Below, piece after piece: positions 31,801 through 60,803 of a DNA stretch of 64,000 nt. Each line of letters starts with the position of its first letter. Positions within the stretch are counted from its first letter, which is position 1. The notes under the pieces were generated by a model. It was not told where the DNA came from, made no database searches, and saw nothing but the letters and a program-made list of their open reading frames with translations. Position numbers and translations under genes: made by a program. Source of the DNA: Aeromicrobium erythreum (GTDB lineage Bacteria; Actinomycetota; Actinomycetes; Propionibacteriales; Nocardioidaceae); the NCBI RefSeq assembly GCF_001509405.1, contig NZ_CP011502.1, positions 3,348,001 through 3,412,000 on the forward strand. The letters are read 5' to 3'.

Positions 31801-31857
31801 TGAGTGTGACGTTTGGGGCCCGATTCGTGGTGTTCGGGGCCCGAAACGTCACACTCA
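31801..31857. repeat. Long hairpin with 14-base arms and internal GGGGCCC boxes
   Basis: TGAGTGTGACGTTT (31801-31814) and its exact complement (31844-31857) enclose two GGGGCCCGA boxes, so the stem can extend to about 22 of 24 matching bases. It lies upstream of the PH-like gene and downstream, in transcription sense, of the tRNA and its repeats, and could end read-through from the tRNA. It could equally be a dispersed intergenic palindrome. Confidence 0.6.
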
Positions 31858-35824: not shown

Positions 35825-36507
35825 GACGTCCACGCTAGGGCGGGGTGCGGGGGTCCGCCTGTCCAGTGGGGTGGGGGTGGCTCTCCGCGCGAGATCTCGT
35901 CCTGCGGCTGCGTCGGTGTGGGTTCTCGCTCGGGTGGGGCTGCGCTGGCGCGGCTTCGTGCTCGGGTGGGGCTGCGTCGGCGCGGCTTCTCGTGGACCTG
36001 CGCTCCGAAAGGGCCTCGACGGGGCGGCTGGCGACGGCACTGGTCTGGGGTCTCGGGCTGTGTCTTCGGCACGGGGTGGACGCAAGATTCTGCGTTCGCG
36101 CGTCTTGGGCGGTGGATCTGCCACCTTCTGAGGCCTGTTCAGGTGGCTGATCCACCGCTGGGGGGCGAGGGGTGTGAAGGGCAGCCAAGATTCTGCCTCC
36201 GCGTGATCGAGACCGAACGCTTCTGCGTTCACGACGGGATCCCGTAGCAAACGCAGCATCCTTGGCCATTCAGCACGCGAACGCAGATCCTTGCGCCCAC
36301 GCGAGCCACAGCCCGAGACCCGAAGCCGGCCCCCACCCAGCCGCCCGGTCGAGGCCCTTTCGGAGCGCAGGACGAGTCAGAGCCGCGCCAGCGCAGCTCC
36401 ACCGACCGAGGAGCCGCACCCATGCAGCCGCAGGTCGAGGAACCCCACGCCCGTCCACCTCGTGACCGCCGAGGCGGACGCGGAAGGGCGCGGCTAGCCT
36501 CGGACGC
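35825..36507. repeat. Intergenic region with an imperfect long inverted repeat
   Basis: No gene is supported in these 683 bases. About 35996-36100 and 36276-36372 are imperfect inverted copies: both contain TGCGCTCCGAAAGGGCCTCG followed by a GGGCGGCTGG box, a GTCTCGGGCTGTG box and a GCAAG-ATCTGCGTTCGCG-like box, in opposite orientation. In addition CTCGGGTGGGGCTGCG is directly repeated 32 bp apart (35929 and 35961). At 36494-36499 TAGCCT is a probable -10 for the quinone oxidoreductase gene, eight bases before its ATG. Confidence 0.6.
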
Positions 36508-38676: not shown

Positions 38677-39462
38677 CTACAGCCAGCGGCGCAGCTCGGT
38701 GGCCAGTCCGTCCTCGAGCACCGTGCCGGTGACGTCGTCGGCGACGGCCTTCAGCTCGTCCGAGCCCTGGCCCATCGCGACACCGCGTCCGGCCCAGCGC
38801 AGCATCTCGTAGTCGTTCATGCCGTCACCGACGGCGAGCACGTCGGCCCGGTCGACGCCGAGCCGCTCGCAGACGACCTCGAGGCCGGACGCCTTCGAGA
38901 CGCCGTCAGGGGCGATGTCGAGCCACGCCGTGTAGCCGATGTTGTAGTTCACCTCGTTGAGGCCGAGCCCGTGCACGAGCCGGCCGAACTCCTCGACGTC
39001 GTGCTCGGGGGCGCGGATGATGACGCGGGTGACCGGCTCGGCCACGAGCTCGTCGACCGTCTGGATGGTGACGGTGCCGTCGATCTCCCACTCCGGGAAC
39101 GGCGCACTGATCCGGTACCCCGTGCCGACCTCCTCGACGGCGACGAGCGCGTCGGGGATGTGCTCGAGCACGCGGCGCACGGCCTCGCTGGCGTCGAAGG
39201 TGACCGTGTGCACGACCTCGACGGGCGAGTAGGTGTGCACGACGGCCCCGTTGCTGGCCACGGCAATGCCGTCGTCGAGGCGTAGGTTGCGGGCCGCGTC
39301 GAGCACGCCGGGGATGGCCCGACCGGTGGAGATGACGACGTGGACGCCGGAGTCCTTGATGGCGTGCACGGCCTCGCGCACCGTGTCGGTCATCCGGTTC
39401 TCCCAGTCGACCATCGTGCCGTCGACGTCGAGCGCGACGATCTTCGGACGCCAGCTCGTCAT
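38677..39462 (-). CDS. HAD-superfamily hydrolase, Cof/YbiV-type sugar phosphatase
   Basis: Protein of 261 aa. HAD motif I is [10 protein letters not shown] (Asp nucleophile near residue 11-13), motif II ISTGRA (Thr/Ser near 44), motif III Lys in GVSKASGLE and motif [12 protein letters not shown] (near 208). The central insertion is a C2-type cap, which identifies the Cof-like phosphatases acting on sugar phosphates or flavin/pyridoxal phosphates. Its start overlaps the serS stop by four bases (ATGA), so it is translated after serS. A housekeeping repair role is possible; the substrate is not evident. Confidence 0.88.
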
Positions 39463-40727
39463 GCGCGCGCCCCGACCGGCTGCAGGACCTCGCCGAGGAA
39501 GGGGTGCAGCGCCGCGGGGAGACGCACCGAGCCGTCGGCCTGCTGCCCGTTCTCGAGCAGCGCGACGATGATGCGCGGCATGGCGCAGAGCGTGCCGTTG
39601 AGGGTGGCGGTCGGCTCCGTGCCGCCGTCGTCGAGCCGGTTGCGGATGTCGAGGCGCCGGGCCTGGAACTGCGTGCAGTTCGACGCGGAGCTGACCTCGC
39701 GGTACTTGCCCTGCGTGGGGATCCACGCCTCGCAGTCGAACTTGCGGACCGCCGAGAGGCCGAGGTCGCCGGCGGCGACGTCGATGACCCGGTAGGGCAG
39801 CTCGAGCAGGTCGAGCCACTGCTTCTCGAAGCCGAGGATGCGCTCGTGCTGGGCGTAGGACTCCTCGAGCGAGGTGTAGACGAACATCTCGACCTTGTCG
39901 AACCAGTGCACGCGCACGATGCCGCGCGTGTCGCGGCCGTGCGAGCCGGCCTCGCGCCGGAAGCAGGGGCTGAACGCGGCGTAGTGGCGCGGGCCGTCGA
40001 GGATCTCGTCGGAGTGGTACGCCGCGAGCGGCACCTCCGACGTGCCCACGAGGTAGAGGTCGTCCTTCTCGAGGTGGTAGACGTCGTCGGCTGCCTGGCC
40101 GAGGAACCCGGTGCCCTCCATGGCATGCGGCTTGACGAGCGCGGGCGGGATGATGGGGGTGAAGCCCCACTCGGCGGCCTTCGACATGGCCAGCTGGGTG
40201 AGCGCGAGCTCGAGCTGCGCGCCGACGCCCGTGAGGAAGTAGAAGCGCGAGCCGCTCACCTTCGCGCCGCGCTCGACGTCGATCGCGCCGAGCAGCGTGC
40301 CGAGCTCGAGGTGGTCGCGCGGCTCGAAGCCCTCCGCCGCGAAGTCGCGGGGGGTTCCGACCTCCTCGAGGACCACGAAGTCGTCCTCGCCACCGGGCGG
40401 GGCGTCGGGTGCCGGGTTGGGCAGCGCCTTGAGCAGCGTCGTGAACTCCTCGCCGGCCGCGGTCTGGTCGGCGTCGGCGGCCTTGACCTGCGCGCTGAGC
40501 TCCTTGGTGCGCGCGAGGAGCGCCTGCTTCTCCTCGCCCTGCGCCTGCGCGACCTGCTTGCCCATCGACTTCTGCTCGCTGCGCAGCGCCTCGAACGCGG
40601 CGATGGTCGAGCGACGTCGCTCGTCGGCGGCGACGAGCGCGTCGACGAGGGAGGGGTCCTCCCCGCGGCGCCGCTGCGCCTCTCGGAGGGACTCGGGGTC
40701 GTCTCGCAGGAGCCTGGCGTCGATCAC
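39459..40727 (-). CDS. serS: Seryl-tRNA synthetase
   Basis: Class II aminoacyl-tRNA synthetase of 422 aa that charges tRNA-Ser. The N-terminal coiled-coil arm spans about residues 28-100 (rich in Ala, Glu, Lys and Arg: [18 protein letters not shown]) and grips the long variable arm. Motif 2 is [19 protein letters not shown] and motif 3 is [19 protein letters not shown] near the C-terminus. GTG start at 40727 is preceded closely by GATAGGCT (TAGGCT as -10), suggesting a leaderless mRNA. A tRNA-Ser gene lies 7 kb away. Co-transcribed with the HAD phosphatase gene downstream. Confidence 0.95.
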
Positions 40728-40765: not shown

Positions 40766-40812
40766 AGCGGTAGGTAGGACGCGGAACTCCGCGCTCCGGT
40801 AGGTCTCGCGCG
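40766..40812. repeat. Left inverted repeat flanking the DUF559 gene
   Basis: These 47 bases match the reverse complement of 41954-42000 at 35 of 47 positions without gaps. Identical blocks are AGCGGTAGGTAG, CGCGGAA and CGGTAGGT. The repeat also holds its own GCGGAA-CT-CCGC palindrome. It lies between the serS start and the endonuclease-like gene. Confidence 0.75.
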
Positions 40813-40936
40813 CTCCAAGGCTGCGACACCGCGCTTCATCCACCGCCGATGACGCCGGCCCGTGCTTGCGGACCCGCCGTCCACAGCCAGCCGTCGCAGC
40901 CTGTGCCTGCCGCTCGCCGCGCGGTCGAGTGGACGC

Positions 40937-41926
40937 ATGCCCAGACCAGCCCAGATTCCCGAGGCCCTCCTCCGCGGACCGTTCCACGTCGACGACGCGG
41001 CCGCCGTCGGCGTCACCCACGACCGACTGCGCGGCGCTGCCTACCGCCGACTCCTGCCGCGCGTGTGGGTCGTGCGCACGCACGTCATGTCCGAACCCGA
41101 CTGGCACCAGGCTGCCCTCCTGTACGCACCGGACGATGCCTGCCTCACCGGAGTCACCCGGCTGCAACAGCTCGGACTCGACATCGGACCGCATCGGCCG
41201 TTGCAGCTCGTCGTGGCCCACGACCTGCACCGCACGTCTCCGGACGTCTTCATCCATCGCACGGACGTGATGCCGGAGCATCGCGGTCGCCTCGTCTCCC
41301 CGCTGGCGGCCTGGGTGGAGGCGTGTCGCACGCTCTCGTTGCTCGACGCCGTGGCGGCCGGCGACTGGCTGCGGCGTGAGCACGGAGTGGATACCGAGCG
41401 GTTCCGGCAGTTCTGCACGAGGGACCACTGGCGCGAGGGCGTGCCGGAGGCGTGGTGGGTGTGGCCGCTGCTGGACCCGGGCTCGAGATCACCGCAGGAG
41501 TCGAGGATCCGTACCTGGATGCACGCCGCAGGCCTGCCCCGCCCCGAGTCGAACGCCGAGGTACGCGACAGGGATCGACTCGTGGCGATCGTCGACTGGT
41601 GGTGGCGCACCTGGCGTCTGGCCGCGGAGTACGAGGGCCTGCACCACCAGGTCGACCGACACCAGTACGTGGCCGACATCGACCGGTACCGACGGATCCG
41701 TTCGTTCGACGCCGCCTACGTGCAGATCACCCGCGAGCTGTACGCCATGCCCCGGACGATGATCCGTCGGATCCACGAGGCTCTGGTCGAGCGCGGCTAC
41801 GACGGTCCTGCGCCCACGTTCGGCGCAGCGACCGACTCCCTCACGCTTCCCGTGGCTCGTGCCATGACCTTGGCGCCTCGGCTCTCGCCGGCCGGTCCCC
41901 GCCCTCTTCCCCCGGCCAGGCGGTAG
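40937..41926 (+). CDS. AbiEi/DUF559-type protein with a Vsr-like endonuclease domain
   Basis: Protein of 329 aa, of a kind common in actinobacteria. The N-terminal half (VDDAAAVGVTHDRLRGAAYRRLLPRVW) resembles the winged-helix/AbiEi-like domain of type IV antitoxin-related proteins. The C-terminal third has a very-short-patch-repair-like nuclease pattern: Glu in SPQESRIRTWM, an Asp in VAIVDWWW, then EYEG and H in LAAEYEGLHHQ, and a D-R pair before YVQIT (the PD-(D/E)XK core). The ATG at 40937 is preferred; the frame opens 25 codons earlier. Inverted repeats (40766-40812 and 41954-42000) bracket the gene, and its stop codon lies inside the right-hand hairpin. Function unknown; a solitary mobile nuclease gene is one possibility. 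Confidence 0.75.
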   Translation: MPRPAQIPEALLRGPFHVDDAAAVGVTHDRLRGAAYRRLLPRVWVVRTHVMSEPDWHQAALLYAPDDACLTGVTRLQQLGLDIGPHRPLQLVVAHDLHRTSPDVFIHRTDVMPEHRGRLVSPLAAWVEACRTLSLLDAVAAGDWLRREHGVDTERFRQFCTRDHWREGVPEAWWVWPLLDPGSRSPQESRIRTWMHAAGLPRPESNAEVRDRDRLVAIVDWWWRTWRLAAEYEGLHHQVDRHQYVADIDRYRRIRSFDAAYVQITRELYAMPRTMIRRIHEALVERGYDGPAPTFGAATDSLTLPVARAMTLAPRLSPAGPRPLPPARR

Positions 41927-42000
41927 GTGGCGCGCGGTCTGCGTCCCTCGTGGCACGCGCCACCTACCGCTGGTCCGCATTCCGCGCGCTACCTACCGCT
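41920..42000. repeat. Right inverted repeat and hairpin after the DUF559 gene
   Basis: Arms GCGGTAGGTGGCGCG (41920-41934) and its exact complement (41956-41970) form a 15-bp stem that includes the stop codon of the endonuclease-like gene. The segment 41954-42000 is the inverted partner of 40766-40812. The structure lies between convergent genes and probably also acts as a transcription terminator for both. Confidence 0.75.
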
Positions 42001-42007
42001 TGGGGGG

Positions 42008-42700
42008 TCAGGAGATCGTCGCCGAGCCCTCGCCCTCGACGCGGTCGTCGTGGAGCAGCTCGCCCTCGGCGTCGACGGGGGTGTAGGTGACCTTGACCTC
42101 GAGCTTCGTGCCCTTCTCGTAGCGGAAGTTCTCGCCGTAGGAGAACGTCTCACCCTTCCCGAGGGTGTAGACGGAGGGCTCGGCGAAGGCGCCGGGGGCG
42201 ACGCCGGAGGTCTGGACGTCCTGCGCCTCGTAGAGGTCGTTGTCGGTGATGCCGTCCATGCCCTGCAGGTACGGCCAGTCGACGTAGCGCGCCGAGACGT
42301 CGACGAGCGAGGAGCCGAGGTCGACGGGGTCGCCGGTGTTGGTGACGACGTAGTTGACGAACACGATCTCGTCACCCACGGCGATGATCGGCTTGTTGTC
42401 CTTCGGGTCCACGAAGTTGCCGGTCTTCGTGGCCTTGGTGGTACCGACCTGGTAGACGTCGACGGTCACGTCGCCGGCCTTCACGGTGCCGATCTTCGTG
42501 CCGGGCGTGGTGACGGGCTTGGCCCAGGCGGGCGCACCCTCGGTCGACGTCGACTCCTCGGTCGCCTCGGCGCTGGGCGAGGAGCTCGCGGAGGCCGAGC
42601 TGCTCGACTCGGCCTGCGGCTCGTCGTCGGACCCGCAGGCAGCGAGGCCCAGCAGGGCGAGGGTGGCGACGGCGGCGGTGCACGTGCGACGGATGGTCAC
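42008..42700 (-). CDS. Secreted lipoprotein, DUF4352-like
   Basis: Protein of 230 aa. The signal peptide MTIRRTCTAAVATLALLGLA ends in a lipobox LAAC with the lipidated Cys at residue 22. A Ser/Glu-rich linker (about 25-55) is followed by a beta-rich domain with VGDEIVFVNYVVTNTGDPVDL, the hallmark of DUF4352-like immunoglobulin-fold domains, and ending with a FRYEKGTKLEVKVTYTP strand. Anchored on the outer face of the membrane. Function unknown. Transcribed alone, convergent with the endonuclease-like gene. Confidence 0.82.
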   Translation of the reverse strand: MTIRRTCTAAVATLALLGLAACGSDDEPQAESSSSASASSSPSAEATEESTSTEGAPAWAKPVTTPGTKIGTVKAGDVTVDVYQVGTTKATKTGNFVDPKDNKPIIAVGDEIVFVNYVVTNTGDPVDLGSSLVDVSARYVDWPYLQGMDGITDNDLYEAQDVQTSGVAPGAFAEPSVYTLGKGETFSYGENFRYEKGTKLEVKVTYTPVDAEGELLHDDRVEGEGSATIS

Positions 42701-60654: not shown

Positions 60655-60720
60655 ACCCAGCAGTCTAGGGCGGGTCCGACAGGGCCCGCGCGACGGACCG
60701 CCCCGCCTGCGCCCGGTTAC

Positions 60721-60803
60721 GTGGGGCCCCACCCAAACCTGCAGAAACCCCGCACGTTTGCGATGGGGAGAGCCCGTTTGCGTGGGGCCCCACGCAAACG
60801 GGC
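60721..60803. terminator. GTGGGGCCCCAC palindromes downstream of the GH65 gene
   Basis: A perfect 32-base palindrome (60772-60803; half-site GCCCGTTTGCGTGGGG) begins 21 bases after the GH65 stop, and a related GTGGGGCCCCAC lies at 60721-60732. The long hairpin should stop transcription of the GH65 operon before the FHA-like gene, whose promoter must lie in the same interval. The related GGGGCCC hairpin at 31801 suggests a dispersed family. Confidence 0.7.

Follow-up and report, generated by a model that had tools for sequence, protein, structure and literature searches.

AbiEi-EDxHD nuclease genes bracketed by cognate dispersed hairpins in Aeromicrobium erythreum and other Actinomycetota: a candidate non-HUH counterpart of the REP/RAYT systems

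Introduction

In the chromosome of Aeromicrobium erythreum, a gene encoding a DUF559/Vsr-like protein is found between two inverted repeats, which raises the question of whether the nuclease and the repeats form a functional pair and, in that case, whether this pair behaves as a self-mobilising unit, as a homing system or as an enzyme that disperses palindromes. A frame for the last of these is provided by RAYTs (TnpA-REP), vertically inherited single-copy enzymes located between their own short palindromes. One genome may encode several RAYTs, each paired with a repeat of its own, while the REP/REPIN sequences themselves are scattered intergenic palindromes that frequently form inverted pairs or tandem groups close to the 3' ends of genes (PMC3116915, PMC3733652). 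Some REP classes, namely the CGTC REPs, are said to have no dedicated transposase (PMC3733652). The window analysed here is the whole stretch of 64,000 nucleotides, positions 3348001-3412000, of the single-contig 3.63-Mb A. erythreum genome (G000).

Inverted repeats at the window locus

The features of the locus, in window positions, are the following.

39459-40727, minus strand: seryl-tRNA synthetase gene (serS), the conserved left neighbour, which marks the syntenic place (synteny comparison)
40766-40815, plus strand: left flanking repeat, a half element of two head-to-tail units (GCGGTAGGTAGGACGCGGAA..., CGGTAGGTCTCGCGCG)
40937-41926, plus strand: AbiEi-EDxHD nuclease gene, 329 aa, likely start ATG 40937, stop TAG 41924-41926
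40943-41476, plus strand: N-terminal half, residues 3-180, AbiEi antitoxin-like (winged helix and second domain; 6y8q, Z 8.2, 171 aligned)
41486-41806, plus strand: C-terminal nuclease domain, residues 184-290, Vsr/EDxHD fold (I-Bth0305I 3r3p, Vsr 1cw0)
about 41916-42003, no strand assigned: right flanking repeat, a full nested palindrome with GCGGTAGGT units
42008-42700, minus strand: putative lipoprotein gene, the right neighbour in G000 and in the related genome G028, without a Pfam match

The initial annotation, made from the sequence alone, had described an inverted match at 35 of 47 positions around the gene, with identical blocks in both repeats and the stop codon inside the right one, and each of these details was borne out. 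In the window alignment, positions 40766-40812 and the reverse complement of 41954-42000 are identical at 35/47 positions and share the blocks AGCGGTAGGTAG, CGCGGAA and CGGTAGGT, and the TAG stop codon is contained in GGCGGTAGGT of the right repeat. Chance similarity of the two flanks was ruled out by shuffling both sides (n=300), which gave a best score of 30 and a mean of 26, and by region pairs with the same spacing taken from other parts of the window (n=414), whose best score was 31. The left repeat, with both units in the same orientation, does not fold on its own (DNA fold, z +0.3), and the fold of the right repeat reaches -39.1 kcal/mol (z -6.2). An interpretation as a transposon with simple terminal inverted repeats was ruled out as well, since these repeats are hairpins themselves and are dispersed. 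Indeed, the two flanking repeats are two members of a dispersed repeat family, because a pattern search of the 3.63-Mb genome gave 30 occurrences of the motif GCGGTAGGTRG, against 6 of the reversed pattern, mostly in intergenic multi-unit palindromes.

Domain architecture and active site of the nuclease

A longer reading frame of the nuclease gene begins at GTG 40862. The protein alone gave zero matches to Pfam and NCBIfam and, this search being empty, its family could be recognised only through its relatives and its fold. The AlphaFold model (pLDDT 94.7) consists of two halves, and in this predicted structure residues 185-288 of the C-terminal domain match the catalytic domain of I-Bth0305I (3r3p) with Z 12.5 and an rmsd of 2.7 over 97 residues, and on Vsr (1cw0) with Z 10.6. 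E188, D220, H237 and D247 are conserved in 71-72 of 72 family members and E231 is invariant; the order E188-D220-H237-D247 would fit the EDxHD family name. Because these EDxHD-type residues are kept, the window nuclease is probably active. The AbiEi-like N-terminal half is presumed to serve repeat recognition.

At the level of the family, Pfam assigned MTES_1575 REase to 23 and DUF559 to 19 of the 72 members, PADLOC AbiEi models matched 52/72, and Y1_Tnp (PF01797) was absent from the Pfam matches of all 72. Likewise, no Y1_Tnp/RAYT protein above the cut-off was found in the A. erythreum genome, by which RAYT-driven repeats were ruled out.

Bracketing and cognate specificity among relatives

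The initial annotation had asked whether the same repeats flank related genes across actinobacteria. Relatives were gathered by homology from 98 related genomes, and the left and right flanks were compared at 90 loci of the genus and nearby families. It was found that 80/90 relatives scored above the 99th percentile of controls, where about 1% would be expected; the median flank score was 53.5, against 25 for the controls (787 intervals of the same length at the same loci), whose maximum was 46, and a detectable shared flank repeat was missing in 10/90 relatives. Bracketing was also observed at 19/28 distant actinomycete loci, a number that is perhaps somewhat lower in truth, as a few of these matches were of low complexity or long and gene-like. 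Thus, flanking repeats do accompany relatives across actinobacteria, but each relative has its own. The shared flank pieces are gene-specific palindromes, such as GCGGTGAGTTAG with GGCCCA, TGGCCAAA, CGTCCGTT, TCGCCCATCC, GGTGGATnnnCAACC and GATTTGTGACG, among others.

This specificity is also seen when flanks are compared among loci. For 55 left flanks, the own right flank was the best of the 90, where about 1 would be expected. Repeat similarity tracked protein similarity (Mantel r 0.31, p<=0.002; maximum of 500 permutations 0.08), although the Mantel and clade-level correlations are inflated by the common phylogeny of enzymes and repeats; the clade-level correlation is partly expected, because relatives and their repeats share that phylogeny. 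By profile search, family members are present in 52 of 198 Actinomycetota genomes and 45 of 148 genera, with at most 11 per genome. No relatives were found in phages, and two remote ones are carried on plasmids. Four genomes of 5-6 Mb from one distant genus (G135, G171, G193 and G247) contain 6-11 family members each. Separately, two direct copies of a GCGTCC-type repeat at locus L190 (G036 C7:48722-49414) enclose an unrelated gene that resembles an acetyltransferase by eye and is possibly a passenger between repeats.

Within the A. erythreum genome, protein search recovered two paralogues of the window nuclease (39 and 33% identity) and profile search three remoter ones. All six family members are bracketed by hairpins, each of a different sequence: GCGGTAGGT... 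at the window gene, CGGTGGnnCAGCAACCGCAG at L032, TGGACACTTGCGGGG at L033 and, at the remoter members, CTGAGCGTGACGTTTGCGGGCC (L257), GCGCGTTTACGTGGGGCCC (L258) and CGGAGATTCCCAGGTCGACC (L259).

Dispersal of the hairpins

About 12 sites of the window repeat are multi-unit palindromes with a unit of ~30 nt, GCGGTAGGTGGCGCGCGGAA plus a tail, arranged head-to-tail and then inverted; one of them (L001) has two nested arms and folds at -63.8 kcal/mol (z -9.5). Nearly all inspected copies of three hairpin families are intergenic, as judged by a simple codon-model gene finder, mostly with convergent or tandem neighbours and only twice with divergent ones, and they are often located at gene 3' ends. 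Among the few copies flagged as coding, two were wide-span artefacts and one was an edge case overlapping a gene end. The window itself contains further dispersed hairpins of the types that bracket other family members.

31801-31857, no strand assigned: dispersed hairpin TGAGTGTGACGTTT..AACGTCACACTCA, of the same type as the brackets of L257 (C1:2232127)
35990-36310, no strand assigned: composite nested palindrome with a GGTGGATCTGCCACC..GGTGGCTGATCCACC hairpin resembling the L032 bracket type (sequence comparison)
60713-60801, no strand assigned: dispersed hairpins related to GCGTTTACGTGGGGC, the bracket type of L258 (C1:903682); 2-mismatch matches, 0 in the reversed window

The composite palindrome, of which the window copy spans about 35990-36310, measures ~650 bp and has more than 10 dispersed intergenic copies in the genome, roughly 75-87% identical (L156, L157, L160, L162-L171 and L173). 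It is built of outer tandem TTGCTGGTGCGCTGCCGCAGGGGG units, GGTCTCCGAAAGGGCCTCGACCGGGCGGCTGGC arms and GACGCAAGATTCTGCGTTCG hairpins with an L032-type hairpin at the centre, and it looks like repeats nested in repeats.

The relation between copy number and enzyme was followed by searching each cognate pattern in 49 genomes of the genus, all genome-wide repeat counts being pattern searches. The window repeat GCGGTAGGTRGCGCG was found 13 times in G000, 3 times in G018, 4 times in G028, 3 times at one place in G039 and once in G008, and 0 times in 44/49 genomes. G018 and G028 are the genomes with the nearest orthologues of the window gene; G039 retains its array at that one place without an orthologue. 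The L032 repeat CGGTGGNNSAGCAACCNCAG, with one mismatch allowed, occurs 37 times in G000, 41 in G028, 15 in G039 and 8 in G018, exactly the genomes that harbor L032 orthologues, and 0-3 times elsewhere, which is the level of the reversed control. The GCGTCC repeat GCGGTGASTTRGCGTCC was found 26 times in G010, 9 times in G036 and 4 times in G020, with a few single copies and 0 in 40 genomes, and the hairpin of G023 showed little spread, 4 of its 5 exact matches lying next to its gene. Dispersal in many intergenic copies was therefore seen for three families and was weak for the others, and high hairpin copy number is found only in genomes with the cognate enzyme clade. In G010, an array of units (L186, C1:2749259-2749524), several of them direct at ~41-nt steps and one inverted, suggests tandem expansion of the repeat.

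Relatives were then searched with the flanks of seven dispersed window-repeat copies, and presence/absence polymorphism was observed. At L002, G000 and G028 have a copy and G039 has none; at L010, a copy is present in G000, and the site is empty in G028, G039 and G010. G039 also has an empty site at L008. The L010 copy (about 1455-1610; G000 C1:1621451) is flanked by a 23-nt direct target repeat with 21 identical positions, which is single at the empty sites, and no other copy is as good a candidate for a recent insertion in which the junctions can be read; gain rather than loss may be argued, by parsimony, for this copy only. General target-site duplication was ruled out, with one clear and convincing case (L010) among 35 dispersed sites. 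The initial annotation had named observations that would refute its reading, namely repeats found equally at unrelated genes, acting only as terminators, and no empty site. Copies do adjoin unrelated genes, as they do in REP systems, and the second is contradicted for the dispersed copies by L002, L008 and L010. For the window cassette, however, no clean two-sided empty site was found: G039, whose serS is 97% identical, is without the cassette and has a different right neighbour.

Exchange or rapid divergence of the cassette at its syntenic place

A comparison of G000 and G028 at the window locus revealed cassette-bounded divergence. The flanking DNA is 93-100% identical and the serS proteins 99.8%; for the nuclease proteins identity falls to 54%, and for the repeat-to-gene spacers to ~47%, near the unrelated level. 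Identity stops inside the left repeat, right after the head AGCGGTAGGTAGGAC, and returns at the head of the right repeat, CTACCTACCGC. The same picture, with flanks at 0.9-0.99 and the gene at 0.56-0.63, was found in L047/L061, L056/L061, L079/L081 and L075/L076, and a similar one, with a weaker left flank, in L048/L050; in the other compared locus pairs the cassette is not replaced. Because the non-coding spacers diverge too, these alignments would favor allele replacement over selection on the protein alone. Orthologues are found mostly at syntenic places, where they are exchanged or diverge. Of the earlier suggestion of a self-mobilising or repeat-associated nuclease, the repeat association holds, and self-mobilisation of the gene is the weaker part. 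The nuclease gene is single copy, its paralogues are at most 39% identical, and neither the multiple near-identical gene copies nor the general target duplication typical of insertion sequences was found.

Cassette replacement is also what a free-standing homing endonuclease or gene drive could produce, by cutting alleles without its own repeat type so that the cassette is copied by homologous recombination via the flanks; the repeats would then represent a split or protective target site, and the scattered copies would be by-products. Such an explanation accords with a nuclease domain nearest to the homing enzyme I-Bth0305I, with orthologues at syntenic places, and with cassettes that are swapped between closely related species in several locus pairs, the edges being sharp and coinciding with the repeat heads and the flanks nearly identical. 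However, tens of related sites in a genome are more than the single target expected of a homing enzyme, the scattered copies would be cut, and a hairpin on both sides of the gene exceeds a split site. As an account of the whole system we regard it as unlikely; nevertheless, a homing-type drive acting on the cassette is the main rival, favored by the replacement data, and it can coexist with the REP/RAYT-like model.

Comparison with known systems

Like the REP/RAYT systems, the system described here comprises a single-copy, vertically inherited enzyme, its own flanking palindromes, several enzyme-repeat pairs per genome and scattered intergenic copies, but the enzyme joins an AbiEi-like half to a Vsr/EDxHD nuclease, whereas RAYTs are Y1 HUH tyrosine transposases. 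We know of no enzymes other than RAYTs for which a one-to-one coupling with dispersed palindromes has been described in bacteria. TIRtrons contain RAYT-like genes with long terminal inverted repeats (PMC3733652), and, as at the present loci, the gene lies between inverted repeats of which the genome can contain a moderate number of copies; their enzyme, however, is of the HUH type, while here an unrelated enzyme is present and the repeats are hairpins themselves.

As regards the nuclease half, the predicted structure suggests that it has the fold, the E-D-x-H-D residue pattern and the multi-domain DNA recognition of the EDxHD homing endonuclease I-Bth0305I; unlike that enzyme, it is located outside any intron or intein, the AbiEi half replaces the usual DNA-binding tails, and it is linked to dispersed hairpins. 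I-Bth0305I, from a family named EDxHD, was reported to act as a dimer at a site almost 60 bp long (PMC3943268), and by analogy a target of such length would suit a nested palindrome. The C-terminal half also belongs to the domain family of Vsr, DUF559 and MTES_1575 REase, as Pfam recorded for 19-23 of 72 members. The Vsr mismatch endonuclease nicks T:G mismatches in dcm sites and, as far as we know, is not repeat-associated.

The N-terminal 180 residues share the fold of AbiEi, from the type IV toxin-antitoxin system AbiE (6y8q, Z 8.2), and the PADLOC label, but the family differs by the added nuclease domain, by its cognate dispersed repeats and, at the window locus, where the neighbours are serS and the putative lipoprotein gene, by having no adjoining gene for the AbiEii nucleotidyltransferase toxin. 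On the basis of this fold, of the AbiEi matches in 52/72 members and of stable hairpins that are often found at gene 3' ends, the protein could be read as an AbiEi-type regulator or defence protein whose hairpins are autoregulation operators and/or bidirectional terminators, the other copies being ordinary terminators or decoys. We consider this improbable: a role as operators does not account for a repeat that overlaps the stop codon, for the tens of copies beside unrelated genes or for paralogue-specific hairpins, terminators need no cognate sequence, and the window member has no AbiEii gene next to it. Pure terminators as the full account were ruled out by the enzyme-specific repeat sequence. 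It is more doubtful still, and in our judgement very improbable, that the nuclease genes are passengers among repeats that other machinery spreads and that gather around genes, for example through genes inserting into palindromes: the left and right window repeats do resemble parts of nested elements, and the acetyltransferase-like gene in G036 is likewise bracketed, but the repeat sequence is enzyme-specific and follows the enzyme across genomes, control intervals are not bracketed, and a RAYT was not found in G000. Both of these readings explain less than the REP/RAYT-like and homing ones.

Because the defining tests of RAYTs, AbiE and insertion sequences gave negative results, the nuclease family is placed outside these three classes, and, judged solely by its logic, it represents a convergent version of REP/RAYT. 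The initial proposal of a repeat-associated nuclease with REP/RAYT- or homing-like logic and a different enzyme is thus strongly supported, the enzyme having a Vsr/EDxHD and AbiEi fold and not an HUH one. A search of open-access literature, which excludes preprints and most subscription journals, found no paper that links DUF559 or AbiEi-DUF559 proteins to cognate repeats, and the novelty is provisional to that extent.

Proposed mechanism

The REP/RAYT-like reading, which we favor with moderate confidence, is that the gene and its bracketing hairpins are a cognate pair in which a non-HUH nuclease recognises its own hairpin and drives its spread. From the comparisons above we infer recognition, cleavage and cleavage-driven spread as follows. 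The AbiEi half would bind the cognate hairpin and the EDxHD half would nick or cut in or near it, probably when the hairpin is extruded or single-stranded. Repair or strand invasion could then copy hairpin units into new intergenic places, and such copying might generate the dispersed multi-unit palindromes in the way proposed for RAYTs and REPINs (PMC3116915, PMC3733652), with inverted closures as well as tandem units, of which L186 has several and L021 has three in direct orientation. The founder set would be the hairpins next to the gene. The repeat-gene-repeat cassette would keep one chromosomal place and, with the repeat heads as its edges, would be replaced as a unit or diverge as one very rapidly, and recognition and spread would co-evolve, leading to one enzyme per repeat family.

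Concluding remarks

Extended to the phylum, the proposal is that AbiEi-Vsr/EDxHD nucleases form an Actinomycetota-wide class of dedicated mobilisers of dispersed hairpins, with many co-diversified specificities per genome, as an evolutionarily unrelated counterpart of RAYT/REPIN; we hold this broader claim to be somewhat probable, with slightly less assurance than the reading of the single locus. Since most of these nuclease fusions score as AbiEi in PADLOC, AbiE defence annotations in Actinomycetota may be inflated. The distant genus with 6-11 members per genome is a good place for studying many enzyme-repeat pairs in one cell. If the proposal is true, the partnership between an enzyme and a palindrome would have evolved twice, the orphan repeats of high-GC Gram-positives would gain a candidate driver, and the large family now called AbiEi or DUF559 would call for re-annotation. 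The family would also provide a natural collection of nuclease/hairpin specificity pairs whose inherent code could be worked out.
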